From positions 3,923,326 to 3,987,325 of the forward strand of contig NZ_CM001437.1 in the NCBI RefSeq assembly GCF_000243275.1: a stretch of 64,000 nucleotides of DNA, given 5' to 3'. The notes beneath the pieces were generated by a model. That model was not told the DNA's origin, ran no database searches, and saw only the letters and a list, made by a program, of their open reading frames with translations. The position numbers and the translations under genes are program-made. Each line of letters opens with the position of its first letter. The stretch's first letter is position 1. Below are positions 10,762 through 47,074 of the stretch, in pieces. The stretch is from Myroides odoratus DSM 2801. GTDB taxonomy: Bacteria; Bacteroidota; Bacteroidia; Flavobacteriales; Flavobacteriaceae.

Positions 10762-10906
10762 ATCGTAATAAGTTTAAAAAGAATTAATTACCACTAATTT
10801 ACCTAAAAAACAGCTATTTATAAATACTGTTTTGCTAATATTTATAGCAAAATAATTAGTTTTGATTTTAGACTTAATTGCTAATTAATAATACACCCAT
10901 TGGCAG

Positions 10907-10959
10907 AGCTTGGCAGATTTATTCTACCAAGCTTTGTTGTTTTGTAATGTTAGCTAACA
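10907..10959. promoter_or_regulatory. Repeats and palindrome upstream of HTH gene
   Basis: TTGGCAGA is repeated twice in tandem (about 10900-10917). AGCTTGG (10907-10913) pairs with CCAAGCT (10927-10933). A perfect 12-bp palindrome TGTTAGCTAACA lies at 10948-10959, about 30 bp before the HTH protein start. This is a plausible operator or recombination-protein site; the role is inferred. Confidence 0.45.
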
Positions 10960-10989
10960 AATTTAATTAACCCATTAAATTCTAACATT

Positions 10990-15745: not shown

Positions 15746-16139
15746 GATAAATAGTATTATGACCTTAGGGTCTGGTTAATTTCATGGCACGTATGTTTTG
15801 GTTTTCAGCTACGAGCATGTTTTACAAGATAAATACGCTCATAGAATGAGGAAGATTTATTGCGGTAATCCATAGGACTTGAACTTGTAAGAGATAAAAA
15901 GCTAAAAAACTTTGCCTATTGAAATACCAGATCCTAAGTCTATAGAATTGTTAGGAAAAAGGGGGGATACTTTAATATTTGTGTATATATTAGTTCCCGG
16001 TAGATAGTATAGGAAAATGATATTAAGATGTTTTAGTCAACTAAGATGTCATTTTGAGTTGATTTAGTGGCTTTTCAAGAATTGTGAAAATCTAATTTAG
16101 AAAGATATTTATATTTTTGTTTTCATAACTAATTTAGAA
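15746..16139. other. Intergenic region between ardA and cat-like gene
   Basis: About 390 bp. It must hold divergent promoters for ardA and the acetyltransferase. No coding frame, strong hairpin or repeat is evident beyond a G-run near 15960 and a -7-like box at 16112. Confidence 0.4.
16112..16119 (+). promoter_or_regulatory. Candidate Bacteroidota -7 box of the cat-like gene
   Basis: TATTTTTG fits the TAnnTTTG consensus and lies 21 bp before the ATG. No well-spaced -33 TTG element was found (the nearest is 27 bp upstream), so support is modest. Confidence 0.35.
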
Positions 16140-16784
16140 ATGAACTATAAAAAATTTGATGTAGAGTCTTGGAATAGAAAAGAGCATTTTTATCACTTTA
16201 AAAACCAATTGAGATGTGGGTTTAGTTTAACCACTAAAATAGATATAAGTAAGGTGATACTCTTTATAAGAGAACATGAGTACAAGTTCTACCCTACGAT
16301 TATTTACTTAATAACTAAAGCGGTTAATAAGCATTCTGAGTTTAAATTTGCCATGAAGGATGGAGAGTTAATACAGTGGGATACTGTTAACCCAGCTTAT
16401 ACTATTATGCATCCTGAAACAGAGACATTCTCAGAATTATGTTCTGTGTATAAAGGAGATTTTAAAACCTTTTTAGAAGAGTATGATCGAGTATATGAGA
16501 AATATAAAGGAGATTACTCAATGTCACCACAAAGAGAAATAGAGAATATATTTAATATTTCTATGATTCCTTGGGTGAGTTTTGATGGATTTAATTTAAA
16601 TGTACCTGGTTTTGGTGATTATTTTGCTCCAATTTTTACATTGGGTAAGTATATTAAAAACAATGAAGAAATATTGATGCCTATATCAATACAAGTACAT
16701 CATGCGACATGCGATGGACTTCATGTCGCTAAATTACTACATAGCTTACAAGAGCTATGTGATAATATAGAAGAGCTGAAATAA
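16140..16784 (+). CDS. Type A chloramphenicol acetyltransferase-like protein
   Basis: 214 residues, full length for the CatA family. It aligns by eye along its whole length with classical CAT enzymes: SWNRKEHFYHF at the start, KFAMKDGELIQWDTVNPAYT, ETETFSEL, IPWVSFDGFNLNV, and the active-site block HHATCDGLHVAKLL. Catalytic His188 is the second His of HH, with Asp192 after it. It would acetylate chloramphenicol from acetyl-CoA. Whether it gives clinical resistance cannot be read from sequence. As a single gene in the ICE it looks like acquired cargo. Confidence 0.85.
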   Translation: MNYKKFDVESWNRKEHFYHFKNQLRCGFSLTTKIDISKVILFIREHEYKFYPTIIYLITKAVNKHSEFKFAMKDGELIQWDTVNPAYTIMHPETETFSELCSVYKGDFKTFLEEYDRVYEKYKGDYSMSPQREIENIFNISMIPWVSFDGFNLNVPGFGDYFAPIFTLGKYIKNNEEILMPISIQVHHATCDGLHVAKLLHSLQELCDNIEELK

Positions 16785-21526: not shown

Positions 21527-22795
21527 ATGATAGCTAAGATTGGTAAAGGAAGTAATCTTATAGGAGCTTTGTCCTACAATCAATTAAAAGTTGATAAAGG
21601 ACAAGGTTCTGTTTTGTTTACAAATAATCTACCAGAACCAAATAACACTTCAAACTACATCACTCAACTTTATAAACACCTTGAGCCTTATCTACTTTTA
21701 AATAATAAGACAGAGAAAGTTGTAAGACATATTTCTTTGAATCCGAATCCCAATGATAAATTAACAGACGAGACCTTAAATGAAATAGCGAAGCAGTATA
21801 TGAATAGTATGGGCTATGAAAATCAACCTTACATTGTCTATAAACACAGTGATATAGAAAGAGAACACATTCATATCGTAACAGTATGTACAGATTTAGA
21901 AGGAAAGAAAATTGATGATAAATACGATCATTTAAAATCAATGAAAGCGTGTCGTGAAATTGAAGGTAAATTCAACCTAACTTCTTCTGTAAAACAAATA
22001 GATAAAGAATCTAAACAGATTCAATTTATACCAGTTGATTATACCAAACATAATTTAAAAGCTCAAATAGCCTCAGTAATACGATATCTACCCAAGTATT
22101 ATAAGTATGATAGTCTAACAAGTTATAATGCTTTATTATCCCTATTTAACATCAGATCAGAAAAGGTTGAAGCTTCCTACAATGGACAAACCAAACACGG
22201 TTTAGTGTACTTTGCTTTAAATGAAATAGGAGAGAAGGTAAGTAATCCTTTTAAGGCTTCCCTTTTTGGAAAAAATGCAAGTTATCAAAATCTTGAAAGT
22301 CACTTTAAAACATCAAAAGAAAAACTAAAATCTTTACCTAATAAAGAGAACCTTAAACATACAATTGAGATAGCGTTAAATACAACAAATTCACAACAAG
22401 AGTTTAAAGGAGAACTTTTAAATCACGGAATAAACGTTGTTTTATTCCAAAACAAAGACAATCGTATCTATGGCGTAACTTTTATCGATCACAACTCTAA
22501 AAGTGTCTATAAAGGTTCTGATTTAAGTAAAGAGCTATCTGCTAATACACTAAATAAAAAGTGGAGTAACGCAGAAGATCATACCAATTCAATTTTAATA
22601 CCTTCTCAACAAGCTAATACTAATGAATCAGACGAGTTACATCCAATGTTTGAGCATTTACATTCTGATACTACCAATTTTAATAATGATGAGTTTTTAT
22701 CATTGTTTAATCTTTTAAACAATAACCAAGAGATAGATTATGAAGAGTTGAGTTTTGAGAAAAGGATCAAAAGAAGAAAAAAAAGATCTTTCTGA
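21527..22795 (+). CDS. mobB: Relaxase MobB (MOBP-like)
   Basis: 422 residues. The relaxase domain is at the N-terminus, with a likely nicking tyrosine at Tyr17 (GALSYNQLKV) and the metal-binding histidine motif H107SDIEREHIH116. The C-terminal half is rich in Asn, Lys and Glu and ends in a very basic tail (RIKRRKKRSF). It nicks oriT and leads the transferred strand. The gene directly follows mobA and ends before a strong terminator. No oriT was found immediately upstream; the best candidate hairpins are at 26.3-26.5 kb. Confidence 0.88.
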   Translation: MIAKIGKGSNLIGALSYNQLKVDKGQGSVLFTNNLPEPNNTSNYITQLYKHLEPYLLLNNKTEKVVRHISLNPNPNDKLTDETLNEIAKQYMNSMGYENQPYIVYKHSDIEREHIHIVTVCTDLEGKKIDDKYDHLKSMKACREIEGKFNLTSSVKQIDKESKQIQFIPVDYTKHNLKAQIASVIRYLPKYYKYDSLTSYNALLSLFNIRSEKVEASYNGQTKHGLVYFALNEIGEKVSNPFKASLFGKNASYQNLESHFKTSKEKLKSLPNKENLKHTIEIALNTTNSQQEFKGELLNHGINVVLFQNKDNRIYGVTFIDHNSKSVYKGSDLSKELSANTLNKKWSNAEDHTNSILIPSQQANTNESDELHPMFEHLHSDTTNFNNDEFLSLFNLLNNNQEIDYEELSFEKRIKRRKKRSF

Positions 22796-22864
22796 GACAG
22801 CGCACCTAATTAGATATTCATATTATGAGCACTTTTAAAACAAATAACTATCTAGATTAAATAT

Positions 22865-22904
22865 AAAAGCCTGTAAACTCATTCAATTTACAGGCTTTTG
22901 TTTT
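22865..22904 (+). terminator. Terminator after mobB
   Basis: AAAAGCCTGTAAA and TTTACAGGCTTTT form a 13-bp perfect stem with a 9-nt loop, followed by TGTTTTG. Confidence 0.85.
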
Positions 22905-23333
22905 GTTTTGAAACTTTTAATAGGTAATAATCCTATTTATGTTGTGGAGAAAGAGGGATTGCCTCTTTTACTTCGTATGCTTTATAAATAGGGATGTTCA
23001 CTTTTTTTAATTGTAGTAAGCACCTTATTCGGAAAGTTTTATACTATGATTGAAATCATTTGATTCAATATCAAAAATAGTAATAAATTTTTATCAAAAT
23101 AATATTATTGAAATGAATTTAAATGTAAAAAAACTACAACTTAATTTAGATGTAGGTTTTATATTTAAAAAATATTTTAATTCTTACAGGGAAAGAAAGA
23201 ATTCTCTTTAATTCTGTACACCTTACAAGTTGGTTTATTTTTTTGAATTACGCTGTGTATCAAACTCTCAAAGTGAGAACTATGATTAAAAGATCTAACT
23301 CTATTGCAAAAAGAGTAATTTTAATAATTAGAA
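22905..23333. other. AT-rich intergenic stretch
   Basis: About 430 bp between the mobB terminator and the end of the STAND gene. It has many stop codons in every frame and no strong hairpin. A TATTTATGTTG/TAAATAGGG-type partial repeat near 22930-22990 is the only structure noticed. Confidence 0.4.
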
Positions 23334-26108
23334 TTATAAAAACCTAATATTATAAGCATGCATTTTATCAAAATCAGATTCTAACTTTTTAAACACTACA
23401 TCTTTATTAATAATTGAGTCGAATAGAATTTCAATTTTTGGAATAAATTTGGAACGATGTCCTAAATATGTTTCATCTGTTTCATTTTCAGTAATAATAG
23501 CAAATCCTTTTTCAGCATTAATTCTTGATATTTTACCATACTTTAAATTTTCTAAATCAAGATTTTCTTGCAAAATAGTATATCGATCATTAAAATTAGG
23601 ATACTTGATCTGTGGTGTTCCCTTAAATTCTCTGTGTATTCGTCCCATATATCTTTTAAATTGTATTTCATCATTGCTATTAATATAGTGTTCAGCTAAG
23701 TTTAGCAATGAGTTTAATTTATAGGAAAGTTGTTTATTAGTATACGCTTGAGAATTTGCAACATTACTTAGAGCTTCTATTGCCTTTGGATACTCTTTTC
23801 TTTCCAAAAGCATTGTACCTTTTCTTAAATTAGATTTATTTAATACGTTATATATTTTTGGATCCTTTGAATTATCACTTATTGCAGAGAAACAATTTCT
23901 TAATGCTTCATTATATTTATCTTCAGCATCTTTATAATTCTTGTTTTTATATAAACTATCCCCCCAATTAACATAGTTTTCTGCCAAACTAGTTTTACAG
24001 ATAACATTATGTTTTATTGAATCAAATTTAGACTCTAATGCTTTTGATAATAGATCTTCTGCTTCTTCATAATTTCCTAATCGACATTGCGCTTGTCCAT
24101 AAGCATTAAGAATAATAGGGTCTTCTGGTGATAGATCATGGGCAATTTTATATTTACTTAACGCGTCTATATGTCTTGTGCTTTTTCTTTTAATGTTTCC
24201 CCAAATTAAAAATATCTGAGGATCATGTTTATCTAAAGTAGCTGCTTTTTCCATTAAGCTATCAGCTTCAGAAAGATGATCTTCATATGCTTCCATTAAA
24301 GCCCAATTACGATAAACGGGAGCAAAATTCGGAGCAGTTTTAATAGCTCTTTTGTACTCCTCCAAAGCTCCTTCATAATCATCATTTTGATATTTTTGAA
24401 AAGCATTCTGTGCAATAATAGTTGCTACTTTTTCTTCATCTGTTTTTGCACCATAATTATATAAACTGTGTTTATATTCTTTTTTCGCAATTTCAGAGGC
24501 TGTGATCGTATGTTCTACTTCATTTATACGATATTTTAATTTTTCTCTTAAATCTAGTGTTTTAGACGCTTGTATTCGTATAAAACTCTTCGTTAAAGGT
24601 AGTAACGAGTATTTTGTTGATATTTCGTTGTTATCATTTTGATATTGCTCTGGAATTACGAGAGATGATAAAATTAATTCTTCAATGGCATCTTCAAAAT
24701 CATCTTCATTTAATTCTACAACATATTGTAAAACTGTAGCAGTAGGTATCTTCTCTACTAAACTTAATGTCAACAAGATTTTTTGAGAATTCTCATTTAA
24801 TGATGAATAGATTTCATCAAAACAAAATTTAGAAATATCACTATCTGATGTATTTATCTTATCTATAATGGAATTAATATCTTTTCCTCTTGCAACTTGC
24901 CCAACAACCCATTTAATCGCTAAAGGATAATTCGATACTTTTTCAACGTATTTACTAATAATCTCATCTTTAAGTTGTGACAGTTTAATTAATCCTTTAT
25001 CTTTTGCAATTTGTCTAAATAAATAAACAGCTTCTTTTTGTTTAAGTTCTCTTAGCTCATGCCTTCTTTCAATTTGTCCTAAACCTTTTCTTGATGTAAT
25101 CAAAAATTTTACATTTAAAGGGGCATCATATATAAAATTAATAATTCTTTGATCTGTTATAGTCTCAAGGTTATCAACCACAATCAAAATTTTTTCATTT
25201 ATCTCAAAGATCTTATTAACAGATATTATTTTTTCTTCAATTGAGTCTAAAATTGGAAGATCAAACATATCAATAATAATATTAAGTAGTTCCTCGAAAT
25301 CTTTTAAGGATGGCTCAATATCTTCTATTCCTAAATCAGATAATTTATTTTCTTTAGCACTTAACCAAACTATAGTATCTAGATTTAATTTGTTTCCCTC
25401 TTCTAATATATCTTGTATAATTCTTAAAGACAAGGCTGTTTTACCTACACCTCCAGACCCTGTTATTGTAACAACAGGAAACTTAGGAGAGGATAAATAT
25501 TGGATGATTTTTTTTCTATCTTCATCTCGCCCAACAAAACCACCATCATACTCATAGTCTGGTGTGGGAAGGTTATTTATTATGCCTATTTTATTATAAG
25601 TATCAATATAGAAATCAGTTGGTACGGTTAGTAAAAAATCCGAATTAGTGTTTTCTTTTAGGTTATCTATTAAATCTAAAATAATTTTTAATTGTAGTTT
25701 TTTAGATAATATTTCAGTGAATTCAATTAATTTTTCTAAATCTATTGAAGAGAAACTTCCTTTTATATGGGCTATTTTACAACGTAAATCATAAAGTTGA
25801 TCCATATATAATATAAAATCATCTTTACTAAAACCTTCATTTATTAATAGTTTAAAATGGTCTTTAAATATTGTTATTTCCTTTAAATCAGGAAAATCAA
25901 TATTTTCAAAAAAATCTAACGAGCTTTCAAAATCGCCATTATTTCTATCTTTAGCTTTTTGAACTATTCCTTTTGGTATATAAATATAGAATGAATCATA
26001 TTTTCTATTTAGAAAATTATTTAAGAGTAATCTGAAATTTTCTTCAAACCTAGATATTATAGTATAACCAACATCTCTTCTATTAGATATAATCATTTTA
26101 GTAATCAT
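23334..26108 (-). CDS. HEPN-NB-ARC-TPR STAND NTPase with C-terminal cold-shock-like domain; candidate antiphage protein
   Basis: About 924 residues from the ATG at 26108 (a TTG three codons upstream is possible). The domains in order are as follows. An N-terminal helical domain of about 150 residues carries the HEPN RNase motif R109CKIAH114 (R-x4-H). The NB-ARC ATPase spans about 190-500, with VGRDEDRK, Walker A GSGGVGKT (Lys223), Walker B ILIVVDN (Asp312), FLITSRKG and YPLAIKW. A winged-helix-like linker follows. TPR repeats run from about 575 to 830. From about 855 to the end is a segment that reads as a cold-shock/OB fold (GKISRINAEKGFAIIT, then YLGHRSKF). STAND proteins sense phage products and trigger an effector, here probably RNA cleavage. 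It is cargo between mob and tra modules. Confidence 0.8.
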   Translation of the reverse strand: MITKMIISNRRDVGYTIISRFEENFRLLLNNFLNRKYDSFYIYIPKGIVQKAKDRNNGDFESSLDFFENIDFPDLKEITIFKDHFKLLINEGFSKDDFILYMDQLYDLRCKIAHIKGSFSSIDLEKLIEFTEILSKKLQLKIILDLIDNLKENTNSDFLLTVPTDFYIDTYNKIGIINNLPTPDYEYDGGFVGRDEDRKKIIQYLSSPKFPVVTITGSGGVGKTALSLRIIQDILEEGNKLNLDTIVWLSAKENKLSDLGIEDIEPSLKDFEELLNIIIDMFDLPILDSIEEKIISVNKIFEINEKILIVVDNLETITDQRIINFIYDAPLNVKFLITSRKGLGQIERRHELRELKQKEAVYLFRQIAKDKGLIKLSQLKDEIISKYVEKVSNYPLAIKWVVGQVARGKDINSIIDKINTSDSDISKFCFDEIYSSLNENSQKILLTLSLVEKIPTATVLQYVVELNEDDFEDAIEELILSSLVIPEQYQNDNNEISTKYSLLPLTKSFIRIQASKTLDLREKLKYRINEVEHTITASEIAKKEYKHSLYNYGAKTDEEKVATIIAQNAFQKYQNDDYEGALEEYKRAIKTAPNFAPVYRNWALMEAYEDHLSEADSLMEKAATLDKHDPQIFLIWGNIKRKSTRHIDALSKYKIAHDLSPEDPIILNAYGQAQCRLGNYEEAEDLLSKALESKFDSIKHNVICKTSLAENYVNWGDSLYKNKNYKDAEDKYNEALRNCFSAISDNSKDPKIYNVLNKSNLRKGTMLLERKEYPKAIEALSNVANSQAYTNKQLSYKLNSLLNLAEHYINSNDEIQFKRYMGRIHREFKGTPQIKYPNFNDRYTILQENLDLENLKYGKISRINAEKGFAIITENETDETYLGHRSKFIPKIEILFDSIINKDVVFKKLESDFDKMHAYNIRFL

Positions 26109-26397
26109 TTTAAACAACCTATTATAAAGTTGTATGGGTTAAAAAATTGTTATAATGAAACATAGCATACATAAACAAAAAACAAGTAATTATTCAATAT
26201 AGTTAAAATAATTATCTTAAATGTTTTAACTATAATTACATCTTATTAAAAGTATTGTAGATGTTTATTTAAATTTCAAATATACAAAACTATTATCATG
26301 AATTTTTACGGAAATACGTAAACCCCTCAATATTTTGAGTCTACCTACCATCCCCAAAAAAAACACGACTTCGGAGTAGTTTTCCAGCCCTCTTCAA

Positions 26398-26456
26398 GAG
26401 CAAGTAGTTTTGATAGCACGAACGTAGTTTCGAGTGCCTCAAAACATAACTTGCTC
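26398..26456. repeat. Long imperfect hairpin, candidate oriT
   Basis: The left arm (26398-26422, starting GAGCAAGTAGTTTTGA) pairs with the right arm (26429-26456, ending ACTTGCTC) with small bulges and a 6-nt loop. CTCATC/GATGAG (26456-26471) and CTCAA/TTGAG (26326-26339) flank it. Such clustered inverted repeats upstream of the transfer operon resemble oriT regions, but no nick site is shown. Confidence 0.5.
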
Positions 26457-26727
26457 TCATCTTTCGATGAGTAATTCCACCAATTTTACAAAGTAAAATC
26501 TATAGTGATTTCATAGTAATAAATCACCCACTATTTGACGCTAAAATGCCAAATATTACCACAAAATGCCATAAATCAGATTCAGGTGGTTTATGAAGTT
26601 TCTTTGTATGTATAATCATATTTGCATAGGTAGATAGATCAGTTGCTTTGCACTGATGTATCTAAAAAAGTAAGTAATGAGGTCATTACGCACATTAGTA
26701 TATAATTAGAGTAACAAGTAGTTATTT

Positions 26728-26946
26728 AAGTATCTATTATGCTAAGTACAAACGTAGCTATTCAACTATTTATGTGAAGTATTGCATAGAAAAGTATATA
26801 GCTAAATAGGTAGTTTGAAACTTAGCTAAGTATTTGATTAGGCTTATAGTTCACTACTTAACTAAGTAAAAAGTTACTGAGATAGCTGACCACAAACTTA
26901 CTAATGGATTGAAGTATCTATTTACTAATGCAGATAGCTAAATACA
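26728..26946. repeat. Iterated motif cluster upstream of parA-like traA
   Basis: TAGCTAAATA or TAGCTAAGTA occurs at about 26799, 26823 and 26935, with variants TGCTAAGTA (26740) and TAACTAAGTA (26858). AAGTATNTA-type motifs occur at 26728, 26777, 26793, 26829 and 26912. The copies lie on the same strand and end 8 bp before the traA start. This fits a partition-like or regulatory binding region for the ParA-family protein or its partner; that is inference. Confidence 0.5.
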
Positions 26947-26953
26947 TACAATT

Positions 26954-27721
26954 ATGAAAACAAAAAAAGAACCAATTTTTGTGGCATTCTCATCTCAAAA
27001 AGGGGGAGTAGGTAAAAGTACATTTACCACATTAGTGGCAAGTATTTTACATTATCAGATGAATTACAATGTAATTGTCTTTGATGCTGATTTTCCACAG
27101 CATAGTCTTGTGAAAATGAAAGAGCGAGATTTATCTATCGTTATGGAAAATGAGGTACTCAAAAAACTTGCTTATAAGCAGTTTACAACGATTAATAAAA
27201 AAGCCTACCCAATATTACAAGAGAAGGCAGATAATGTACTCAGCGCAGCCAAACAATTTATACGTGAGTCAACTATACCAGTTGATGTAGTTTTCTTTGA
27301 TTTACCAGGAACGGTTAATACCGCTGGAATCTTAAATGCATTATCGGGCATGCACTATATTTTTACGCCTATCAAAGCGGATAGAGTAGTGATGGAAAGT
27401 ACGCTTGTTTTTACACAACTTTTGCGAGATGTTGTGATGAAAAAATCAGAGACAGCAATACACAGTATAAATCTGTTTTGGAACCAAGTAGATGGGAGGG
27501 AAAGTACTCCTTTGTATGATGTCTATAACCAAGCTATTAAGGAACTGGATTTTAGTTTGATGCAAAGTCAGATTAAAAGTAGTACGAGATTTCGTAAGGA
27601 GAGTGAAGTGACAAGCAAGTTTGTTTTCCGTTCCACTTTACTACCTCCAGATAAACGTCTTAGTAAAGCTAGTGGCTTAGACCTTTTTATAGAAGAGTTT
27701 TTAACAATCATCCAACTATAA
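26954..27721 (+). CDS. traA: ParA-family ATPase, TraA
   Basis: 255 residues. A deviant Walker A motif KGGVGKST with Lys21 marks the ParA/MinD family, with FDADFPQ and FFDLPG as the later acidic motifs. In CTnDOT-type elements the first transfer-operon gene is a ParA homologue called TraA. It may partition or position the excised element, or regulate transfer; its exact role is not known. It heads a block of four closely spaced genes, and a repeat array lies directly upstream. Confidence 0.88.
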   Translation: MKTKKEPIFVAFSSQKGGVGKSTFTTLVASILHYQMNYNVIVFDADFPQHSLVKMKERDLSIVMENEVLKKLAYKQFTTINKKAYPILQEKADNVLSAAKQFIRESTIPVDVVFFDLPGTVNTAGILNALSGMHYIFTPIKADRVVMESTLVFTQLLRDVVMKKSETAIHSINLFWNQVDGRESTPLYDVYNQAIKELDFSLMQSQIKSSTRFRKESEVTSKFVFRSTLLPPDKRLSKASGLDLFIEEFLTIIQL

Positions 27722-37227: not shown

Positions 37228-38787
37228 ATGTCAGAAGAACAAAAGAAAATATTAGAACAACAGCTTTGGAATATTGCCAATACGTTGAGAGGAAAGATGA
37301 ATGCAGATGAATTCCGAGATTATATTCTTGGATTTATTTTCTACAAGTATTTAGCAGAAAAAATGGAAATCTATGCGAACTCCATTTTGCAAGAAGATAA
37401 TATTGAGTTTAGCAGTATTGATGAAAATTCAGCTGTAGGAAAAGAATATATTGATGCAATTAGAGAGGAAGCTTTGGAAACCTTAGGCTACTTTTTAAAG
37501 CCTTCTGAGCTTTTTAGTGAGATAGCAAAAAGAGGAAGTGGAGGTACTAACACTTTTATCTTAGAAGACTTACAGAAAATTTTAACGAATATTCAGTTAA
37601 GTACTATGGGAACTCAAAGTGAAGAAGACTTTGATAACCTATTTGAAGATATGGATCTTAATAGTACTAAACTTGGTAAAACGGCTGAAGCACGTAATGA
37701 AATTATCGTAAAGGTTTTAGTTCATTTAGATGAAATTGATTTTAAATTAGAACATACTGAATTGGATGTTTTAGGAGATGCTTATGAGTATTTAATTGGT
37801 CAATTTGCAAGTGGTGCTGGTAAAAAAGCTGGAGAGTTTTATACTCCTCAAGAAGTTTCTAAGATTCTGGCAAAGATCGTTACTACAGGAAAGAATAGAT
37901 TAAAATCTGTATATGATCCTACTTGTGGTTCAGGTTCTTTATTGTTACGTGTTGCGCGTGAAGTGAAAGATGTCAATAATTTTTATGGACAAGAGATGAA
38001 CCGAACAACGTATAACCTTGCAAGGATGAATATGATTTTGCATGGTGTACATTATTTAAAATTTGATATTAAACAAGAAGATACGTTAGAGCATCCTCAA
38101 CATTTGAATGATATGCCATTTGAGGCTATTGTTGCAAATCCACCTTTCTCAGCTAATTGGAGTGCTAATCCACTATTTTTAAGTGACGATCGCTTTAGTC
38201 AATATGGTAAACTTGCACCTGCAAGCAAAGCTGATTTCGCTTTTGTTCAGCACATGATTTATCACCTTGCTGAGAATGGTACGATGGCGATTGTTTTACC
38301 TCATGGTGTGTTATTTAGAGGAGCAGCAGAATTACATATTCGTAAGTATCTTATTGAGCAAAAAAACTACTTAGAGGCAGTAATTGGACTTCCTGCTAAT
38401 ATCTTTTATGGCACAAGTATTCCAACTTGTATTTTAGTGTTTAAGAAATGTAAAGAGGATCCTAATCATATTTTATTTATCGATGCAAGCAAAGACTTTG
38501 AAAAGGTAAAGAACCAAAACATGTTGCGTGAGGAACATATTGAGAAAATTGTAGATACTTATCGCAACAGAACCGTAATCGAAAAATATAGCCATTTAGC
38601 TACTTTAGAAGAAGTTGCAGAAAATGATTATAATCTAAATATCCCCAGGTATGTTGATACTTTTGAAGAAGAAGAAGAGATCGATATACATGCTGTAATG
38701 AAGGAAATAAAGTCTTTGGAAGCTAAGCGTGCTGAATTAGACAAGGAAATTGATGTTTATTTCAAAGAACTAGGACTAGTTTTTTAA
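37228..38787 (+). CDS. hsdM: Type I restriction system methyltransferase HsdM
   Basis: 519 residues. An N-terminal helical HsdM domain (NTLRGKMNADEFRDYILGFI) is followed by an N6-adenine methyltransferase domain. Motif I is YDPTCGSGSLLLRVA. Motif IV is N304PPF307. It methylates adenine in the target set by HsdS and protects host DNA. It is followed 38 bp later by the expressed hsdS. It is the first gene of the locus hsdM-hsdS-(hsdS)-recombinase-hsdR. Confidence 0.94.
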   Translation: MSEEQKKILEQQLWNIANTLRGKMNADEFRDYILGFIFYKYLAEKMEIYANSILQEDNIEFSSIDENSAVGKEYIDAIREEALETLGYFLKPSELFSEIAKRGSGGTNTFILEDLQKILTNIQLSTMGTQSEEDFDNLFEDMDLNSTKLGKTAEARNEIIVKVLVHLDEIDFKLEHTELDVLGDAYEYLIGQFASGAGKKAGEFYTPQEVSKILAKIVTTGKNRLKSVYDPTCGSGSLLLRVAREVKDVNNFYGQEMNRTTYNLARMNMILHGVHYLKFDIKQEDTLEHPQHLNDMPFEAIVANPPFSANWSANPLFLSDDRFSQYGKLAPASKADFAFVQHMIYHLAENGTMAIVLPHGVLFRGAAELHIRKYLIEQKNYLEAVIGLPANIFYGTSIPTCILVFKKCKEDPNHILFIDASKDFEKVKNQNMLREEHIEKIVDTYRNRTVIEKYSHLATLEEVAENDYNLNIPRYVDTFEEEEEIDIHAVMKEIKSLEAKRAELDKEIDVYFKELGLVF

Positions 38788-38825
38788 TTTTTTATATCCT
38801 TAATGTTATTACTAACGAAAATTAA

Positions 38826-40025
38826 ATGATTAAAATGACAAGTAAAAGATTAAAAGATAAGAAGGTTCCTAATTTGAGATTTCCAGAGTTTGAAGGAGAG
38901 TGGGAAACGAAGAAGTTGAGGGAATTTGGTGAAATAAATCCAAAATACAAAAAGTTTCCTAGTTTGTTTGTCTACATTGATTTAGAGAGTGTATCCAATG
39001 GACGTCTTTTGAAAGAGGAATTTATAAATGAGAAAGAAGCTCCAAGTAGAGCTCAAAGAATACTTGAAAAAGGTGATATCTTATTTCAAATGGTCAGACC
39101 ATATCAAAAGAATAATTTATTTTTTAACAAAGAAGGAAGATATGTTGCTTCAACTGGCTATGCTCAAATAAGAACAAAACAAAATCCACAATTTGTTTTC
39201 CAATATTTACATAATCAGAAGTTTGTTGACAAAGTTATAGAAAGATGCACAGGGACAAGTTACCCTGCTATTAATTCATCAGATTTAGGAAATATTCATA
39301 TTCATTATCCTCATTTAAATGAACAAAGTAAAATAGCCTCATTCCTATCACTTGTTGACGAACGAATACAAACCCAAAACAAAATAATTGAGTATCAAGA
39401 AACCTTAATGTTAGGGGTGTTGACTAAAATTTTTACCCAAAAACTAAAATCAAATAGTATAAGAACCAAAGAATTTCCTTTATGGACATATAAAAAAGGA
39501 GGTGACATTTTTTACAATTGTTCTAATAAAAAACATAATTCAGATTTACCGATTCTTGCTATTACTCAAGAATATGGTGCTGTACCTAGAGATTTAATAG
39601 ATCATAATATAACAGTAACTGAAAAGAGTATTGACAGTTATAAAGTGGTTGATAAAGGTGATTTTATCATTAGTTTAAGGAGTTTTCAAGGAGGTATTGA
39701 ATATTCAAATTACCATGGAATTTGTAGTCCAGCATATATAATATTAAAAAACAGTATTGATATAGTACCAGAATTCTATAAACACTATTTAAAATCAGCA
39801 GCTTATATAAAGTTATTGAATAAGAAACTAGAAGGGATTAGAGACGGGAAAATGATTAGTTACAATTATTTTTCAGAGATAAATTTACCATATCCATGTC
39901 TGGAGGAACAGAAATATATAGCTGATATTCTTACTACAATTGATAATAAAATAAAGATAGAGAAGCAGATGTTAAACTCGTTAAGTAAGCAAAGAGATTA
40001 TTTACTACAACAAATGTTTATCTAA
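38826..40025 (+). CDS. hsdS: Type I specificity subunit HsdS, expressed copy
   Basis: 399 residues with two target-recognition domains separated by a conserved helix (EQSKIASFLSLVDERI, TQNKIIEYQETL) and ending in a similar helix (EEQKYIADILTTIDNKI). It sets the DNA sequence methylated and cut. Its N-terminal segment contains a 25-bp block (38862-38886) that is exactly inverted at 41222-41246 in the silent copy. A 22-bp block in the central helix (39371-39392) is inverted at 40677-40698. Recombination there would swap one or both recognition domains. ATG 38835 is an alternative start. Confidence 0.92.
   Translation: MIKMTSKRLKDKKVPNLRFPEFEGEWETKKLREFGEINPKYKKFPSLFVYIDLESVSNGRLLKEEFINEKEAPSRAQRILEKGDILFQMVRPYQKNNLFFNKEGRYVASTGYAQIRTKQNPQFVFQYLHNQKFVDKVIERCTGTSYPAINSSDLGNIHIHYPHLNEQSKIASFLSLVDERIQTQNKIIEYQETLMLGVLTKIFTQKLKSNSIRTKEFPLWTYKKGGDIFYNCSNKKHNSDLPILAITQEYGAVPRDLIDHNITVTEKSIDSYKVVDKGDFIISLRSFQGGIEYSNYHGICSPAYIILKNSIDIVPEFYKHYLKSAAYIKLLNKKLEGIRDGKMISYNYFSEINLPYPCLEEQKYIADILTTIDNKIKIEKQMLNSLSKQRDYLLQQMFI
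38862..38886 (+). repeat. Inversion repeat 1, hsdS copy
   Basis: The 25-bp sequence beginning AAGGTTCCTAATTTGAGAT is perfectly matched in inverted orientation at 41222-41246. It encodes KVPNLRFP at the N-terminus of both HsdS copies. Confidence 0.9.
39371..39392 (+). repeat. Inversion repeat 2, hsdS copy
   Basis: The 22-bp sequence AACCCAAAACAAAATAATTG(AG) is perfectly matched in inverted orientation at 40677-40698. It encodes the central conserved TQNKIIE helix between the two recognition domains. Confidence 0.9.
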
Positions 40026-40030
40026 TATAA

Positions 40031-40061
40031 AAGGCAAGAAATGATTAACGTTTCTTGCCTT
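40031..40061. terminator. Bidirectional terminator between convergent hsdS copies
   Basis: AAGGCAAGAAA and TTTCTTGCCTT form an 11-bp perfect stem with a 9-nt loop. It stops transcription of the active hsdS before the silent copy. Confidence 0.85.
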
Positions 40062-40067
40062 ACTATT

Positions 40068-41234
40068 TTAAACGAAAAGATTATCTAAAAGATATTTTTT
40101 CTGGTTATCTAATTTCTGTAGAAAAGTATTTTCTATATCAATTTTAGTATTTAAAGATACTAAGATATTGGATATCTTCTGTTGTTCTTGAATTGATGGA
40201 AAAGGTATTACAATAGAACTCATCGTTCCATTCATAAGTTTTGGATTACCAACATAAGAAACATATTTATGTGAAACAGAATTGATTAATTCTGCTATAC
40301 AATGATTCGCATTACCATTAGAATTTAATAATACACCACAAACATTTGTGCAATAAAATTTTCCTTCCCGATAATTTACATCACCAGCATTAGCTCCATC
40401 AGTAGTCCAAGTAATGGCATTCTCAAATATAAAGTTATTATAGTAACCTGCTAAACCTTTGTTTTTTGTTTGTGAAGAGTAAACAGGGTAATTATTTTCA
40501 TTATCTTTATCATTGGACAACAAGCTCATTGATAAAACATTACCTCTGGTTATTGTAAAAACATCACCTATCTCTTTAAATTCCCATCTAGAGAATTCAT
40601 TACCATTATTATCTTTAAATCTCAAGTTTTGAGAGAATATCTTTTTTGATATACTTGTCTTTAATGTTTCTAACTCCTCAATTATTTTGTTTTGGGTTGT
40701 TATCCTTTCATCTATTAGAGATAGAAATGATGCTATTTTTTGTTGTTCAATGATTGAAGGGAGAGACAAAGTTACAGAGGCTAATATTTCTTGACCAACA
40801 TTATATCTTGTACTTCCTCCTGATTTTGATGTTATTTGATTTCTTACAAAACTAGTTTTTAATGCTTTATTTAAAAATATAGGTTCATATTCTCCAATTT
40901 GTTTTCCTCTAATTACAAATCCACCAAACGTTGCAGTCTTGTGTTTATCTAAATATACGCTAGTTGTTCCTACTTCTTCTCGAGTTTCTGAACTTCTTTG
41001 AAACAAAATATCTCCATAATTCACAGGAAACTTATTTATAATCTCATTCGTCACATTTACGCTTCCGATAATTTTATCGTATGTTATAAACTCATTACTT
41101 AAGATATCTAATACGTTTATAAACTTATATCCATTACCATATTGTTCTTTTGTTGCATTTATACCATTCTTAAACTCCAATAAATCCCCCAACTTCTTCG
41201 TTTTCCATTCTTCTTCAAATCCTGGAAATCTCAA
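40068..41234 (-). CDS. hsdS: Silent inverted HsdS cassette, no own ATG start
   Basis: 388 codons in opposite orientation to the expressed copy. It has the same architecture: RFPGFEEEWKTKKLG, central EQQKIASFLSLIDERITTQ, and C-terminal QEQQKISNILVSLNTKI. Both recognition domains differ from the expressed copy. The frame continues upstream of the repeat (SLGSKVPNLRF) but offers no ATG; only TTG is available at 41234. It is therefore most likely a silent store of recognition domains brought into expression by inversion. Confidence 0.85.
   Translation of the reverse strand: MRFPGFEEEWKTKKLGDLLEFKNGINATKEQYGNGYKFINVLDILSNEFITYDKIIGSVNVTNEIINKFPVNYGDILFQRSSETREEVGTTSVYLDKHKTATFGGFVIRGKQIGEYEPIFLNKALKTSFVRNQITSKSGGSTRYNVGQEILASVTLSLPSIIEQQKIASFLSLIDERITTQNKIIEELETLKTSISKKIFSQNLRFKDNNGNEFSRWEFKEIGDVFTITRGNVLSMSLLSNDKDNENNYPVYSSQTKNKGLAGYYNNFIFENAITWTTDGANAGDVNYREGKFYCTNVCGVLLNSNGNANHCIAELINSVSHKYVSYVGNPKLMNGTMSSIVIPFPSIQEQQKISNILVSLNTKIDIENTFLQKLDNQKKYLLDNLFV
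40677..40698 (-). repeat. Inversion repeat 2, silent copy
   Basis: Reverse complement of 39371-39392, a perfect 22 bp. Inversion between the two would exchange only the C-terminal recognition domain. Confidence 0.9.
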
Positions 41235-41246
41235 ATTAGGAACCTT
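41222..41246 (-). repeat. Inversion repeat 1, silent copy
   Basis: Reverse complement of 38862-38886, a perfect 25 bp. Inversion between the two would replace both recognition domains. Confidence 0.9.
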
Positions 41247-41318
41247 AGAACCTAAGCTATCACTAGGATTAAATATCCTTAATTGTTTTCCTTTGGCGTT
41301 TTAAAATATAAATACAGA

Positions 41319-42245
41319 ATGAATACACAAAAACAACTTTCAGAAGTAATTGAGCTATGGAAAATAGACAAACAGCAATATGTGAAAAAATCAAGTTTTT
41401 CAGCTTATACTCTTTTGATTGAAAATCACTTATTACCCATTTTTGGAGAACAATATGAAATTGAAGAAGCAGATGTACAAAACTTTGTACTTCAAAAATT
41501 AGAAGGAGGATTGAGTCATAAAACAATTAAAGATATTTTGATTGTCTTAAAGATGGTATTGAAGTTTGGAGCTAAGAATAAGTGGTTGAGTTATACGCCT
41601 TTTGATATACAGTTCCCAACAGAGCGAGAAAAGCAAAATTTAGAAGTACTCAGTCGAGCTGAACAAAAAAAGATAATGAACTACATACAAGATCATTTTA
41701 CATTTAAGAATTTAGGAGTTTATATCTGTTTAAGCGCAGGGATCCGTATAGGAGAAGTCTGTGCCCTTACTTGGGAAGATATAGATACTGATAATGGTGT
41801 TATAAGTATTAATAGAACTATTCAAAGAATTTATTTGATAGAGAATGGTGTCAGAAGAACTGAGTTAATTTTAGACACACCAAAGACAAAAAATTCCATT
41901 CGCGATATACCTATTAGTAAAGATTTATTAAGAATATTAAAGCCTTTTAAAAAAATAGTAAACCCTACTTTTTTTGTACTAACTAATGATGCCAAGCCTA
42001 CAGAGCCAAGAACGTATCGTAGCTATTATAAAAAACTGATGAATGAATTAGATATGCCTGAATTAAAATTTCATGGATTAAGACATAGCTTTGCGACTCG
42101 TTGTATTGAGAGTAATTGTGATTATAAAACAGTTAGTGTGCTTTTAGGTCATTCTAATATTAGTACAACCTTAAATTTATATGTTCATCCTAATATGGAG
42201 CAGAAAAAAAAGGCAATTGAACAAATGTTTAAGACATTAAGGTAA
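41319..42245 (+). CDS. Tyrosine recombinase, probable hsdS invertase
   Basis: 308 residues from ATG 41319; a TTG 12 codons upstream is not preferred. The SAM-like N-terminal DNA-binding domain is followed by the catalytic domain, with Arg in GIRIGEVCALTWEDI, HxxR in FHGLRHSFATRC, GHSNISTT, and nucleophile Tyr288 (LNLYVHP). Short recombinases of this type placed inside type I loci of Bacteroidota and Firmicutes invert hsdS segments. The perfect repeats on both sides support that role here. It is distinct from the ICE integrase at 47.6 kb. Confidence 0.88.
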   Translation: MNTQKQLSEVIELWKIDKQQYVKKSSFSAYTLLIENHLLPIFGEQYEIEEADVQNFVLQKLEGGLSHKTIKDILIVLKMVLKFGAKNKWLSYTPFDIQFPTEREKQNLEVLSRAEQKKIMNYIQDHFTFKNLGVYICLSAGIRIGEVCALTWEDIDTDNGVISINRTIQRIYLIENGVRRTELILDTPKTKNSIRDIPISKDLLRILKPFKKIVNPTFFVLTNDAKPTEPRTYRSYYKKLMNELDMPELKFHGLRHSFATRCIESNCDYKTVSVLLGHSNISTTLNLYVHPNMEQKKKAIEQMFKTLR

Positions 42246-42257
42246 AATTATTATCAC

Positions 42258-42347
42258 TATGAATTAGGAGAAATGAGTGGGAGTATGTATATTTTGTTAA
42301 ATTTGTTTACAAATCAAATATTCACCTTTTTTAACTCCTAATTCATA
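42258..42347. repeat. 13-bp inverted repeat in front of hsdR
   Basis: TATGAATTAGGAG (42258-42270) and CTCCTAATTCATA (42335-42347) are perfect complements enclosing 64 bp. The right arm lies 6 bp before the TTG start of hsdR. Possible roles are a leader hairpin that limits HsdR translation or a small mobile repeat. Confidence 0.6.
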
Positions 42348-42353
42348 ATTATT

Positions 42354-45230
42354 TTGAGTAAGCAGTCTGAGCAGTTTTTAGAAGAGCAATTGGTAATCCA
42401 ATTGCAAAAGATGGGATATAAATACGTTTCTATTGCCAATGAAGCAGAGTTGCTGGCTAATTTAAAAATACAATTAGAAAAGCATAATCGAATTGAATTT
42501 AGTGATAGCGAATTCGAGAAAGTACTAAATATACTTAACAAAGGATCTGTCTTTGAAAAAGCAAAAACTTTACGAGAGAAAAAGCAACATATTATTAGAG
42601 ATAACGGAGATAATCTATATTTTGAATTTCTAAATGTTGAGCATTGGTGTCAGAATGAATACCAAGTAACAAATCAGATTACGCAAGAAGGAAAATATGT
42701 AAATCGCTACGATGTTACACTTTTAATTAATGGTCTTCCTTTAGTTCAAATTGAATTAAAAAGAAGAGGACTTGAATTAAAAGAAGCTTTCAATCAAATT
42801 AACCGATACCAAAAACATAGTTATGGTTCAGGAAAAGCTTTGTTTCAATATGTACAATTGTTTGTAATAAGTAACGGGATTAATACAAAGTATTACAGTA
42901 ATTTTGGAACTCATACACCAGAGTTTTTACAGACTTTTCATTGGACAGACGAGCTTAATAATCCTTTAAATAATATTTTAAACGGTTTTACAGATCGATT
43001 CTTAGAACCTTGTCATGTGAGTAAGATGATTTGTAAATACATTGTTCTTAATGAGACAGATAAACGTTTAATGGTTCTTCGTCCCTATCAGTATTATGCT
43101 GTGGAGAGTATTATTAAAAAAGTTACAGAAAATGAAGTGCTCAATGGTTATAATATTGAAAAGAATGGATATATCTGGCATACTACAGGTAGTGGAAAAA
43201 CATTGACAAGTTTTAAAGCGAGTCAAATTCTCTCTAATATACCAGCTATTAGAAAAGTTGTGTTTGTTGTAGACCGAAAGGATTTAGATTATCAAACCAA
43301 TCAAGAATATGATAAGTTTAGTAAGGGATCAGTTAGCTCGGCTACCAATACAGACGATTTAATTAAGAAGTTTATTGATCCTAATGTTAGTATTATTGTA
43401 ACTACTATTCAGAAATTAAACAATGCTATATCTGGTAGAAATGTATCAAAGATGAAATCCATAAAGGACATGCGTATGGTTTTTATTTTTGATGAATGTC
43501 ATCGCTCTCAATTTGGTGATACCCATAAAAATATAGTACAATATTTTACTAATATTCAATTATTTGGTTTTACAGGAACCCCAATATTAGCTGAGAATGC
43601 TAATGGAGAGAAAACAACAGCAAGTCTTTTTGGAAACTGTTTGCATAAGTATGTTATTACTGATGCAATACGCGATGAGAATGTCTTGAAGTTTTCGGTT
43701 GAGTACATTCAAACATTTAAGAAGAAGGATCATATCATTGATTTACAAATAGAGCAAATTAATGAAGCTGAAGTTTATGAAGCTCCTGAGCGTAAAGAAG
43801 CTATTGTAGATTATATTGTGCAATATCACAATCAAAAAACACAAAATAAAAAGTTCTGTGCGATGATGTGTGTACAGGATATTGACGCAGTTATCCAATA
43901 TTATGAGATTTTTAAAAGAAAGAAACAGGATGGAGAACACGATTTAAAGATTGCTACTATATTTAGTTTTGCTCAAAATGAAGATGAGATGGAAGAGCAA
44001 GTTGTAAATCAGCTAAATATGGCTGCTGAATCACCTCTTGAATATCAGAGCAATTATGTTCCTCATCGAAGAGAATTGCTTGAGTTATATGTCGACGATT
44101 TTAATAATCAGTTTGAAGAAAAACATAATATAAAGGATACAGAAGGTTTCTATAACTATTACAATGCTGTGGCAAAGAAATCAAAACAAAATGAAACAGA
44201 TATTCTTTTGGTTGCTAATATGTTTTTAACGGGATTTGATAGCAAATATTTAAATACACTATATGTAGACAAGAATTTACAATACCATGGGCTTATTCAA
44301 GCCTTTAGTCGTACAAATAGAATTTTAGATAAGAATAAGACACAAGGGAATATAGTATGCTTCCGCAATTTGAAGGAGAAGACTGATCAAGCAATTGCTT
44401 TGTTTAGTAATAAAGAAGCTATTGATGAGATTATTGTAGAACCTTATGAAAAGTACGTTGAGAAATTTAATGAAGCTACAGAAAAACTTTTAGAACTTGT
44501 ACCAGGAGTTGATGCTGTAGACGGACTATATTCTGAGGATGAAAAGTTGAAATTTATCTTAGCATTTCGTGCTCTTATAAGACTTCATAAGAAGATGACT
44601 CATTTTACTGAGTTTAATTGGGAAGATTTAGATTTAGAAGAACAAATATTTGCTGATTACACTAGTAAGTATTTAGATTTAAAAGACAAGTTAAGCTCTG
44701 ATACTTCTGCACCAGAAAAAACTTCAATTCTAAATGATATTGATTTTGAATTAGAACTTATTAGAAGAGATACAATTAATGTGAATTATATTCTCCAGTT
44801 ATTAATTACATTCAAATCAAAACAAACAGATAAGGATAAAGAAACTATTGAAAAAGAAATATCTAATTTATTGAATACAGAAGTATCTCTTCGAAGTAAA
44901 CGCGAACTAATAGAGAAGTTTATTCAAGAAAATTTACCTCTAATAGAAGATACCGATAATATCACAGAAGAGTTTGATAAATTCTGGGTTAAAGAACAAG
45001 AATCAGCACTGGTTAAATTAGTTCAGACAGAAAACTTATATAGAGATCAAACAGAGAAATTAATAGAGAATTATTTGTTTTCTGAGAGAGAACCTTTACG
45101 AGATGATTTACTGAGCTTAAGAAAAGATGGAAAACCAAGTGTTCTAAAATTTAAAGAAACAGGTGATCGTATTTTAGGAAAGATTATGGGATTTGTGGAC
45201 ACTTTTGTAAATGGAATATCGGGACATTAA
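42354..45230 (+). CDS. hsdR: Type I restriction endonuclease HsdR
   Basis: 958 residues starting at TTG. An in-frame TAA 15 bp upstream rules out an earlier ATG, and the first 19 residues carry the typical QFLEEQLVIQLQKMGY segment, so TTG is preferred to ATG 42411. An N-terminal nuclease domain (DVTLLINGLPLVQIELKRRG, the PD-(D/E)xK core) precedes a SF2 motor with Walker A Lys282 (TTGSGKT), D380ECH383 and GFTGTPI. It translocates and cleaves DNA not methylated by HsdM. A rare start may keep its level low relative to HsdM. Confidence 0.92.
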   Translation: MSKQSEQFLEEQLVIQLQKMGYKYVSIANEAELLANLKIQLEKHNRIEFSDSEFEKVLNILNKGSVFEKAKTLREKKQHIIRDNGDNLYFEFLNVEHWCQNEYQVTNQITQEGKYVNRYDVTLLINGLPLVQIELKRRGLELKEAFNQINRYQKHSYGSGKALFQYVQLFVISNGINTKYYSNFGTHTPEFLQTFHWTDELNNPLNNILNGFTDRFLEPCHVSKMICKYIVLNETDKRLMVLRPYQYYAVESIIKKVTENEVLNGYNIEKNGYIWHTTGSGKTLTSFKASQILSNIPAIRKVVFVVDRKDLDYQTNQEYDKFSKGSVSSATNTDDLIKKFIDPNVSIIVTTIQKLNNAISGRNVSKMKSIKDMRMVFIFDECHRSQFGDTHKNIVQYFTNIQLFGFTGTPILAENANGEKTTASLFGNCLHKYVITDAIRDENVLKFSVEYIQTFKKKDHIIDLQIEQINEAEVYEAPERKEAIVDYIVQYHNQKTQNKKFCAMMCVQDIDAVIQYYEIFKRKKQDGEHDLKIATIFSFAQNEDEMEEQVVNQLNMAAESPLEYQSNYVPHRRELLELYVDDFNNQFEEKHNIKDTEGFYNYYNAVAKKSKQNETDILLVANMFLTGFDSKYLNTLYVDKNLQYHGLIQAFSRTNRILDKNKTQGNIVCFRNLKEKTDQAIALFSNKEAIDEIIVEPYEKYVEKFNEATEKLLELVPGVDAVDGLYSEDEKLKFILAFRALIRLHKKMTHFTEFNWEDLDLEEQIFADYTSKYLDLKDKLSSDTSAPEKTSILNDIDFELELIRRDTINVNYILQLLITFKSKQTDKDKETIEKEISNLLNTEVSLRSKRELIEKFIQENLPLIEDTDNITEEFDKFWVKEQESALVKLVQTENLYRDQTEKLIENYLFSEREPLRDDLLSLRKDGKPSVLKFKETGDRILGKIMGFVDTFVNGISGH

Positions 45231-45471: not shown

Positions 45472-46089
45472 ATGAGTGAATCTGTTAGTAATCAGGTTTT
45501 AGAGAAGATTTCTAAATCTAAACGTGGCGAAATTTTTTTCGCTAATGATTTTATTAAATATGGCACATCTGATAATATTCGCCAAGTACTTTCACGTTTA
45601 GAAAAAGAAAAACTTATTGAACGACTAGCCCAAGGTATTTATATAAAACCTAAGCAAGATTCTTTGTTAGGAACAATATATCCAGGTATAGAGGAAATTG
45701 CAAATGAGATTGCAAAAAGAGATAAGGTGCGTATAGCTCCAACTGGTGTATTAGCATTATATCTATTGGGACTAACAACTCAAATACCATTAAAGACTGT
45801 TTATTTGACTGACGGGTCTCAAAGAGAAATTAAGGTTGGAAATAGGAAGATTAATTTTAAGAGGACTGTCCCTAAAAATCTTATGATAAAAGATAATCTA
45901 TTACATTTAGTAGTGCAGGCTTTTAAAGAAAAAGGGCAAAAACAAATTACAGATTCTTTTTTAAATACTATTAAATTAACTATTGATAAAATAGATCAGC
46001 AAGTGATAGAATCTCAATTGAAATTTGCTCCAGTTTGGATTCAAAAAGAAATTAAAAAACTTTATTATAAAGAGGAGTATGTGGATTAA
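45472..46089 (+). CDS. AbiEi-like antitoxin (DUF6088)
   Basis: 205 residues. An N-terminal winged-helix domain (GEIFFANDFIKYGTSDNIRQ, YIKPKQD) is followed by an AbiEi-type C-terminal domain (APTGVLALYLLGLTTQIPLK, VYLTDGSQREIKVG). It should act as a DNA-binding antitoxin and repress its own operon at the repeat just upstream. It overlaps the toxin gene by 11 bp, which couples their translation. AbiE systems are type IV toxin-antitoxin modules with abortive-infection activity. Confidence 0.83.
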   Translation: MSESVSNQVLEKISKSKRGEIFFANDFIKYGTSDNIRQVLSRLEKEKLIERLAQGIYIKPKQDSLLGTIYPGIEEIANEIAKRDKVRIAPTGVLALYLLGLTTQIPLKTVYLTDGSQREIKVGNRKINFKRTVPKNLMIKDNLLHLVVQAFKEKGQKQITDSFLNTIKLTIDKIDQQVIESQLKFAPVWIQKEIKKLYYKEEYVD

Positions 46090-47074
46090 TTTATCAGAAG
46101 AGCAAAGAGTTACTGTACTAAAACAAGCTGAAGCAGTTTATGGACTACCAGCTTTTGTAATAGAGAAAGATTGGTGGGTTTGTATTCTTTTAAAGGCAAT
46201 ATTTCAATCTAAATATGCAGGTTCTATTATATTTAAAGGAGGAACTTCACTGAGTAAGGCTTATAGTTTAATACAACGATTCTCAGAAGATATTGACTTG
46301 ATTATTGACAGACGTTTATTGGGGTTTGATGAGCTTGATTCTAAAACACAAATAAAAAAACTTAGAAAGGCTTCTGGGGGATTTATTATTAATGAATTTA
46401 GAGAAGAGTTAATACATCAATTAACTGAGTTGGGAGTAAATCCGAGTTTATATGAAATTAAGTATAACAATCATGTTGATGATACAAGTGACCCCAATAC
46501 TTTAGAGGTTTATTATCAATCAAGTGTCCCTGCTACTAATGCATATATTCAACAGCGTGTTTTACTTGAAATGGGGGCTAGATCGTTAACTGAGCCAGCT
46601 GAGTCAAAATCTATTATTTCATATATTGATTCGGAATTTTCAAAATCGCCTTTTGCTATGCCTACATTTAATGTAGAAGTTGTTGTTCCCACTCGTACTT
46701 TAATTGAGAAAGTATTGTTATTGCACGAAGAATTCTCAAAGCCTATTGAAAATATTAGAACTGATCGATTGACTAGGCATTTTTATGACATAGACAAAAT
46801 TATGGATTCAGAATTTGGTGAACAAGCAATAGTTGATGATGATTTGTTTACTAATATTGTTGAACATCGACAAAAAGTAACGCCTTTAAGAGGGATAGAT
46901 TACTCAAATCATAAAAAAGGTAAATTGAGTATTTTACCTCCAGAAGAACTACTTGAAAGATGGGCAGAAGACTATAAAACAATGCAAGAGCATATGATCA
47001 TTGGAAATAGTTTAAACTGGACTGATTTACTTAATCGTTTAAAGGAGATCGAAAATAAATTTAATAAGATTTAA
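46079..47074 (+). CDS. AbiEii-type nucleotidyltransferase toxin
   Basis: 331 residues from ATG 46079, preceded by a good ribosome site (AGAGGAG). An in-frame extension to 46025 is rejected. Nucleotidyltransferase motifs are G54GTSLSKAY and RFSEDIDL (E70, D71, D73), and the C-terminal segment has RTDRLTRHFYDI. AbiEii/MenT-like enzymes add nucleotides to substrates such as tRNA and stop growth. The pair sits in the ICE with the restriction and STAND genes. It ends before a very strong terminator. Confidence 0.85.
   Translation: MWINLSEEQRVTVLKQAEAVYGLPAFVIEKDWWVCILLKAIFQSKYAGSIIFKGGTSLSKAYSLIQRFSEDIDLIIDRRLLGFDELDSKTQIKKLRKASGGFIINEFREELIHQLTELGVNPSLYEIKYNNHVDDTSDPNTLEVYYQSSVPATNAYIQQRVLLEMGARSLTEPAESKSIISYIDSEFSKSPFAMPTFNVEVVVPTRTLIEKVLLLHEEFSKPIENIRTDRLTRHFYDIDKIMDSEFGEQAIVDDDLFTNIVEHRQKVTPLRGIDYSNHKKGKLSILPPEELLERWAEDYKTMQEHMIIGNSLNWTDLLNRLKEIENKFNKI

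Follow-up and report, generated by a model that had tools for sequence, protein, structure and literature searches.

What protein does a conjugative element of Myroides odoratus DSM 2801 carry as the only gene between its relaxase and ParA genes, and what might it do there? The stretch analysed here, which we call the window, spans 64,000 nucleotides (contig NZ_CM001437.1, positions 3,923,326 to 3,987,325; positions below count from its first letter) and includes an element with relaxase, ParA, TraG and a tyrosine integrase, the last of these some 300 bases away from genes for tRNA-Pro and tRNA-Ser. The gene in question, hereafter the window gene, has an open reading frame (ORF) free of internal stops whether counted from a TTG (23334-26117, 927 aa) or from an ATG (23334-26108, 924 aa); because most homologues begin at what is residue M5 of the window protein, the true start is probably base 26096. 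A protein search of its own genome at E 0.001 returned the window gene as the single match. As read from the sequence, an N-terminal HEPN domain, a STAND NTPase of the NB-ARC type, TPR repeats and an OB domain follow one another within a single chain. From this domain content, and by analogy with known HEPN and STAND proteins, we judge it rather likely that the gene encodes a self-contained receptor of NLR-like build that acts by abortive infection, and that it is defence cargo of an integrative conjugative element (ICE) of Bacteroidota.

A first-pass annotation, made from the letters of the stretch, had proposed an R-x4-H motif (R109, H114) within a HEPN N-terminus, an intact Walker A/B NB-ARC ATPase, TPR-like repeats and a C-terminal cold-shock/OB fold, and each of these assignments was supported when it was followed into homologues and a predicted structure. 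Conservation was counted in an alignment of 92 rows and motifs in a listing of 120 homologues. When residues 1-160 were shuffled, 413 of 5000 shuffled sequences showed an R....H pattern, so its presence in one sequence means little; but R109 and H114 are invariant in all 92 aligned homologues, and RxKIAH occurs in 117 of the 120 listed, the remaining three having RCKIVH, RCRIAH and RCDIAH. The full-length model, built from the 92 rows (mean predicted local distance difference test score [pLDDT] 83.6, predicted template modelling score 0.44), gives the N-terminus an all-helical HEPN-like fold. A 6-row profile of this domain had no match among PDB sequences, and a fold search with the whole model returned a listing filled by TPR proteins, which left the two ends unprobed. 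Sequence and model support an N-terminal HEPN domain, probably of the Swt1/Abi2 class, which would act as an RNase. The middle of the protein was recognised directly: NB-ARC (PF00931) matches residues 196-415 at 40.8 bits against a Pfam cut-off of 23.5, K223, D312 and R340 are each invariant in 92/92 homologues, and several TPR models exceed their Pfam cut-offs.

The C-terminal segment, GKISRINAEKGFAIIT, lies inside a five-stranded domain of the predicted model, with all five strands within residues 855-923 and a pLDDT of 81-93 per 10-residue block. We compared the family's tails with cold-shock genes from the host genome and 20 related genomes, in which the domain was found by motif in 27 of 30 loci. 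The 92-row tail profile aligned with these cold-shock domains over 62 columns (probability 90.5, E 1.4e-6); with P0114, a member with a clear cold-shock domain (CSD) in Pfam (a precomputed PF00313 annotation), removed, the match fell to probability 64.7 and E 6.2e-5, and 200 of 200 column shuffles, the reversed alignment and three other stretches of the family all scored below this reduced value. The window tail alone scored E 2.9e-5 (for 1000 sequences) with the CSD model, compared with 0.078 for the best of 460 shuffled tails, and 14 of the 92 family tails passed E 0.01. Searched against PDB, an 11-row OB profile that included CSD-rich members found CspB at E 3.7e-9, and a 7-row profile without them found no CSD chain, only uL24m at E of at least 0.23; the CSD label of the window clade therefore leans on the intermediates and on the 92-row comparison. 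From these profiles and the model, we conclude that the C-terminus reads as a divergent cold-shock-like OB domain. As cold-shock domains generally bind nucleic acid in single-stranded form, this one, by analogy, probably binds RNA or single-stranded DNA (ssDNA).

The terminal OB fold had been thought unusual, a view the family does not bear out: a loose OB motif is present in 107 of the 120 homologues listed, 8 of the remaining 13 also have the domain by eye, and the five in which it was not seen by eye are all shorter proteins (623-870 aa). The named organisms among the listed relatives are few and mostly Bacteroidota, plus one Brocadiales and one Turicibacter member. The same domain order also recurs far away, in contigs whose titles name Woesearchaeota (L004) and Bathyarchaeota (L005), at 32-33% identity over residues 9-759 (HEPN and NTPase/TPR recognised by searches, the tails by alignment only), and in a Planococcus plasmid protein (L114) at 24.6% identity over 78%; the OB domain is retained in these distant relatives. 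Among the 80 genome-contig loci kept, a match of at least 32% identity that runs from the HEPN end across the TPRs is seen in L002-L006 only; the others give 21-38% identity, mostly around the NTPase. Twelve plasmid records match, none over 80% of the query. At E 1e-60, searches of 298 other genus genomes and of a further 394 sampled from the phylum found nothing; the window protein is rare within both. A phage or viral origin was considered and set aside: no match was found in 50,697 phage records at E 1e-10, and the one weak viral-contig match covers residues 191-237 only. By eye, the ORF lists of the L002-L006 flanks (which were not profile-searched) show no recurring partner gene, in keeping with a gene that stands and moves by itself; in L005, an integrase-like ORF lies about 4 kb away.

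The position of the gene is the second line of evidence. Backbone homology to two related elements (L135 and L136) ends at 23088-23114 and is found again from 26274-26277, and this delimits a cargo of about 3.2 kb with the window gene alone. The gene had been described as cargo between mob and tra modules beside other defence genes; its place between relaxase and ParA stands, but the adjacency is loose, the type I restriction-modification and AbiE loci lying 11-21 kb away. A relaxase search of 299 genus genomes gave 107 matches, the host included, and ten downstream stretches were fetched, six of which have both Mob and ParA. In five of these six elements the slot is filled with other genes of at least 100 aa, 17 in all; of the 13 scanned with PADLOC, 6 match and 7 match no PADLOC family, and the matches fall in four of the six elements. 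L136 carries DRT2, a PDC-S31 candidate and DUF4062; L138 carries LmuA and LmuB (Lamassu); L139, a type II/IIG methyltransferase and a HATPase protein; and L142, AbiU/AIPR and two ORFs without a PADLOC match. L135, whose relaxase is 98% identical, carries DUF4062, DUF5457 and one ORF without a family; as none of these matches PADLOC, it counts as defence cargo only through DUF4062, which the available text of a preprint reports as an antiphage NADase (PMC13174449). The slot of L140 has no ORF of at least 100 aa and contains a free-standing 62-aa cold-shock protein ORF at 8933-9121. Two stretches with no ParA in the piece (L137 and L141) gave a single weak match to a TIR effector (1e-6) among four ORFs and none among three; the slot scans set aside the distant L143 and L144. 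As controls, four ORFs downstream of ParA in related elements gave one weak candidate (PDC-S09, 3e-7), and one of three window backbone genes, at 12713-14776, matched DpdF at 2.7e-106. Since that gene reads as topoisomerase III, the DpdF match probably reflects a shared domain and not a Dpd system, and it illustrates the library's false positives. On this small sample, the mob-ParA slot is likely a defence-cargo site.

Several observations weigh against reading the window gene as a defence receptor with these four domains. PADLOC also matched 2 of the 7 control genes, and the slot tally comprises six elements only; no PADLOC family fits the window protein itself, which gave only mad8, at E 0.0015 and over the P-loop. 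The flanks of L003-L006, read by eye from ORF lists, consist mostly of housekeeping genes and not defence islands. At the C-terminus, Pfam CSD (PF00313) reaches E 0.055 and 13.8 bits against a cut-off of 27 on the window tail, and among its relatives it gives 26.9 bits for L114, 13.2 for L004 and no match for L005 and L003. At the N-terminus, PF18731 (HEPN_Swt1) matches at E 0.11, behind another model (0.012) and below the Pfam cut-off; it is found in L005 (7e-6), L004 (8e-5) and L114 (0.0043) and not in L003, with none of the five proteins, the window protein included, above the cut-off. Finally, 118 of the 120 members listed have Cys at the second position of the HEPN motif, a position described, in the available text of one source, as N, H or D (PMC12373285).

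If the window protein is nonetheless such a receptor, its mode of action would be as follows, every step beyond domain content and conservation being modelled on known HEPN and STAND proteins. While the cell rests, the protein would be unassembled, its NB-ARC switch bound to ADP. A sign of infection would be recognised by the variable C-terminal TPR-OB part; NB-ARC exchange would then let ATP-bound subunits assemble and bring N-terminal HEPN domains into pairs (HEPN domains act as dimers), and the paired active site (R109/H114) would cut RNA, stopping growth before phage release. The OB domain may be part of the sensor or may bring substrate to the nuclease. An antiviral role of the receptor is probable, with its location as the evidence that points to antiphage activity. 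The distribution of change along the chain is consistent with this scheme: mean pairwise identity is 46.8% for HEPN, 65.3% for NB-ARC, 52.4% for the ARC/winged-helix part, 60.1% for the first half of the TPRs, 30.8% for the second half and 31.5% for OB, and a conserved switch with variable ends fits a receptor.

The same numbers bear on what the OB domain would do. One possibility, which we regard as a serious contender without quite favouring it, is that the OB domain only recruits or orients RNA substrate for HEPN, the trigger being a phage protein bound by the TPRs. This would agree with other STAND defence proteins, which, in the available text of two papers, are known or proposed to pair an N-terminal effector with C-terminal repeats (PMC9122126, PMC12931631), and with the closest relatives (P0002-P0004), against which the window protein keeps its OB domain well (77-88% identity) and differs most in HEPN (59-65%) and in the second TPR half (58-71%). 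Alternatively, the OB/cold-shock domain would itself be the trigger sensor, for phage or damaged host RNA or for ssDNA, with the TPRs as a mere relay, so that RNA bound at one end of the chain would turn on RNA cleavage at the opposite end. Its retention in distant relatives and the general affinity of such domains for single-stranded nucleic acid speak for this, as does its variability, which a sensor would be expected to show: in four of five identity bands OB is the least conserved part, at 28-72%, where NB-ARC and the first TPR half have 55-92%. Among pairs more than 80% identical, the greatest change is in OB (71.5), followed by the second TPR half (78.5) and HEPN (79.1). However, the second TPR half is equally variable over the whole family, C-terminal repeats are the proposed sensor in other bacterial STAND defence proteins (as far as the available text of those reports goes), and the well-kept OB of P0002-P0004 also weighs against it; we consider an OB sensor plausible but on balance unlikely. 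Its broadest form, an ancient single-chain immune receptor of bacteria and archaea in which the CSD senses phage-linked RNA or ssDNA, the STAND module assembles and an AbiF-type HEPN destroys RNA, is doubtful.

It is improbable, in our estimation, that the HEPN domain is catalytically dead and acts as an RNA-binding or signalling adaptor. The near-universal Cys after the Arg would suit such a loss, but the invariance of R109 and H114 would be unexpected if activity had been lost, and some relatives have Asn there instead (P0114 and L114). A role as transcriptional regulator, the meaning of the public name 'LuxR family glucitol operon transcriptional activator' on homologues (P0010, P0021, P0036 and others), is very improbable and we reject it: GutR-type regulators likewise combine an NTPase with TPRs, and a MurQ-like sugar-metabolism ORF (by reading) adjoins the gene on the opposite strand in L003, but no DNA-binding domain was found, the only helix-turn-helix model matching in the HEPN-like N-domain being HTH_72 at E 0.13, no glucitol operon was recognised in the ORF lists of L002-L006 or the window, and the gene sits in a likely defence-cargo slot.

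The receptor reading does not describe a new kind of protein. The first-pass annotation knew of no system with this order of domains, a claim that fails because Anantharaman et al. described bacterial proteins of the HEPN-STAND type from sequence in 2013 (PMC3710099), among them some that have TPR/S1 or cold-shock OB domains. In the available text of that paper, the group shares with the window protein an N-terminal Swt1-like HEPN, a STAND NTPase, TPRs and a C-terminal OB-type domain; its examples (Npun_F6454, MED222_16016, Desac_1927 and a B. cereus gi) are given by domain make-up and identifiers and could be compared by description only, our nearest stand-in being the Planococcus plasmid relative L114. 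What sets the window copy apart from that group is that it is ICE-borne and that its clade's named members are mostly Bacteroidota. The window gene is thus a fresh example of a protein build known from sequence since 2013. We found no experimental test of HEPN-STAND-TPR-OB proteins in the literature searched, whose coverage leaves out most subscription journals, and the available portions of four further papers (PMC7159879, PMC13092281, PMC8195603 and PMC12839542) describe no test of a four-domain protein of this kind.

Other systems share parts of this design. CoCoNuT type IV restriction systems (PMC11090510), as far as the available text describes them, likewise have cold-shock-like OB folds, HEPN nucleases, a P-loop NTPase and a predicted RNA target, but they use a McrB-type GTPase, coiled coils and several genes, whereas the window system is one gene with NB-ARC and TPRs; no McrB or McrC was found among the subset of window genes profiled. 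AbiF (an Abi2/AbiD/F HEPN toxin; PDB 8vz6) is a stand-alone HEPN protein to which a non-coding RNA binds, in contrast to the window HEPN, which is fused to a STAND receptor. An AbiF-type regulatory RNA beside the window gene was sought and rejected: when 22600-27000 was compared with Rfam at E 0.1, the listing had no AbiF RNA, only a weak match to the Bacteroides small RNA BTnc005 at 22864-22975 (28 bits against 174.8 needed), downstream of both the window gene and the relaxase gene in the element backbone. Avs/AVAST and other repeat-bearing STAND defence proteins (TIR-STAND-TPR, SIR2-STAND) share, in the available accounts, the order of effector, STAND NTPase and C-terminal repeats; the window protein differs in its HEPN effector, its NB-ARC-type NTPase and its extra OB domain. 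The PADLOC library, which presumably includes Avs models, returned no Avs family for it, mad8 being the only match.

The features are listed in Table 1. Besides the type I restriction-modification locus and the AbiEi/AbiEii pair, the accessory genes of the element include ArdA and chloramphenicol acetyltransferase (CAT, PF00302), the latter two adjoining one another at 15218-16784. Within the type I locus, two hsdS-like genes in opposing directions (38826-40025, plus; 40068-41234, minus) share inverted repeats of 65 nt at 89% and 123 nt at 72%, and a tyrosine recombinase comes after them (41283-42245); by its sequence, 38826-42245 resembles a type I specificity locus that undergoes phase variation by inversion. 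A search for direct repeats marking the element ends, comparing 48851-49700 with 8001-11000, found none longer than 12 bases. Beyond the integrase and tRNA genes, on their right side, the span 56363-63733 holds a series of genes whose N-termini are alike (56363, 59695, 61272 and 62678); they surround an ORF at 57904 with an Rhs-like reading.

Table 1. Positions of the window gene, its domains and the surrounding features of the element.
Feature	Position	Strand	Remarks
MobA/VirD2-type relaxase	21527..22795	plus	Left flank of slot
Cargo stretch of mob-ParA slot	23115..26273		Window gene is the only ORF kept (60-aa ORF list)
HEPN-NB-ARC-TPR-OB protein gene	23334..26108	minus	924 aa from ATG; family-conserved start ATG at 26096
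Cold-shock-like OB domain (predicted)	23337..23555	minus	Residues about 852-924; five strands
TPR superhelix	23559..24488	minus	Residues about 541-850; C-terminal half (698-850) highly variable in family
NB-ARC and ARC/winged-helix region	24489..25541	minus	Residues about 190-540; Walker A K223, Walker B D312, R340
HEPN domain (predicted)	25653..26087	minus	Residues about 8-152; all-helical; R109 and H114 at end of helix 95-113
R-C-K-I-A-H motif	25767..25784	minus	R109-H114
ParA-like ATPase	26954..27721	plus	Right flank of slot
Type I restriction-modification locus	37228..45230		
AbiEi/AbiEii pair	45472..47074	plus	

For HEPN-STAND proteins with a nucleic-acid-binding tail, the window copy offers a compact, intact, one-gene test case within a defined cargo unit. 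The mob-ParA slot of this Bacteroidota conjugative element, in which defence systems appear to be swapped among relatives, is a place to seek further unknown ones. Should the doubtful RNA-in, RNA-out scheme prove true, the family would represent an NLR-type receptor with nucleic acid as both trigger and target, and RNases of the AbiF/Cas13 type would be tied to NLR-like receptors.
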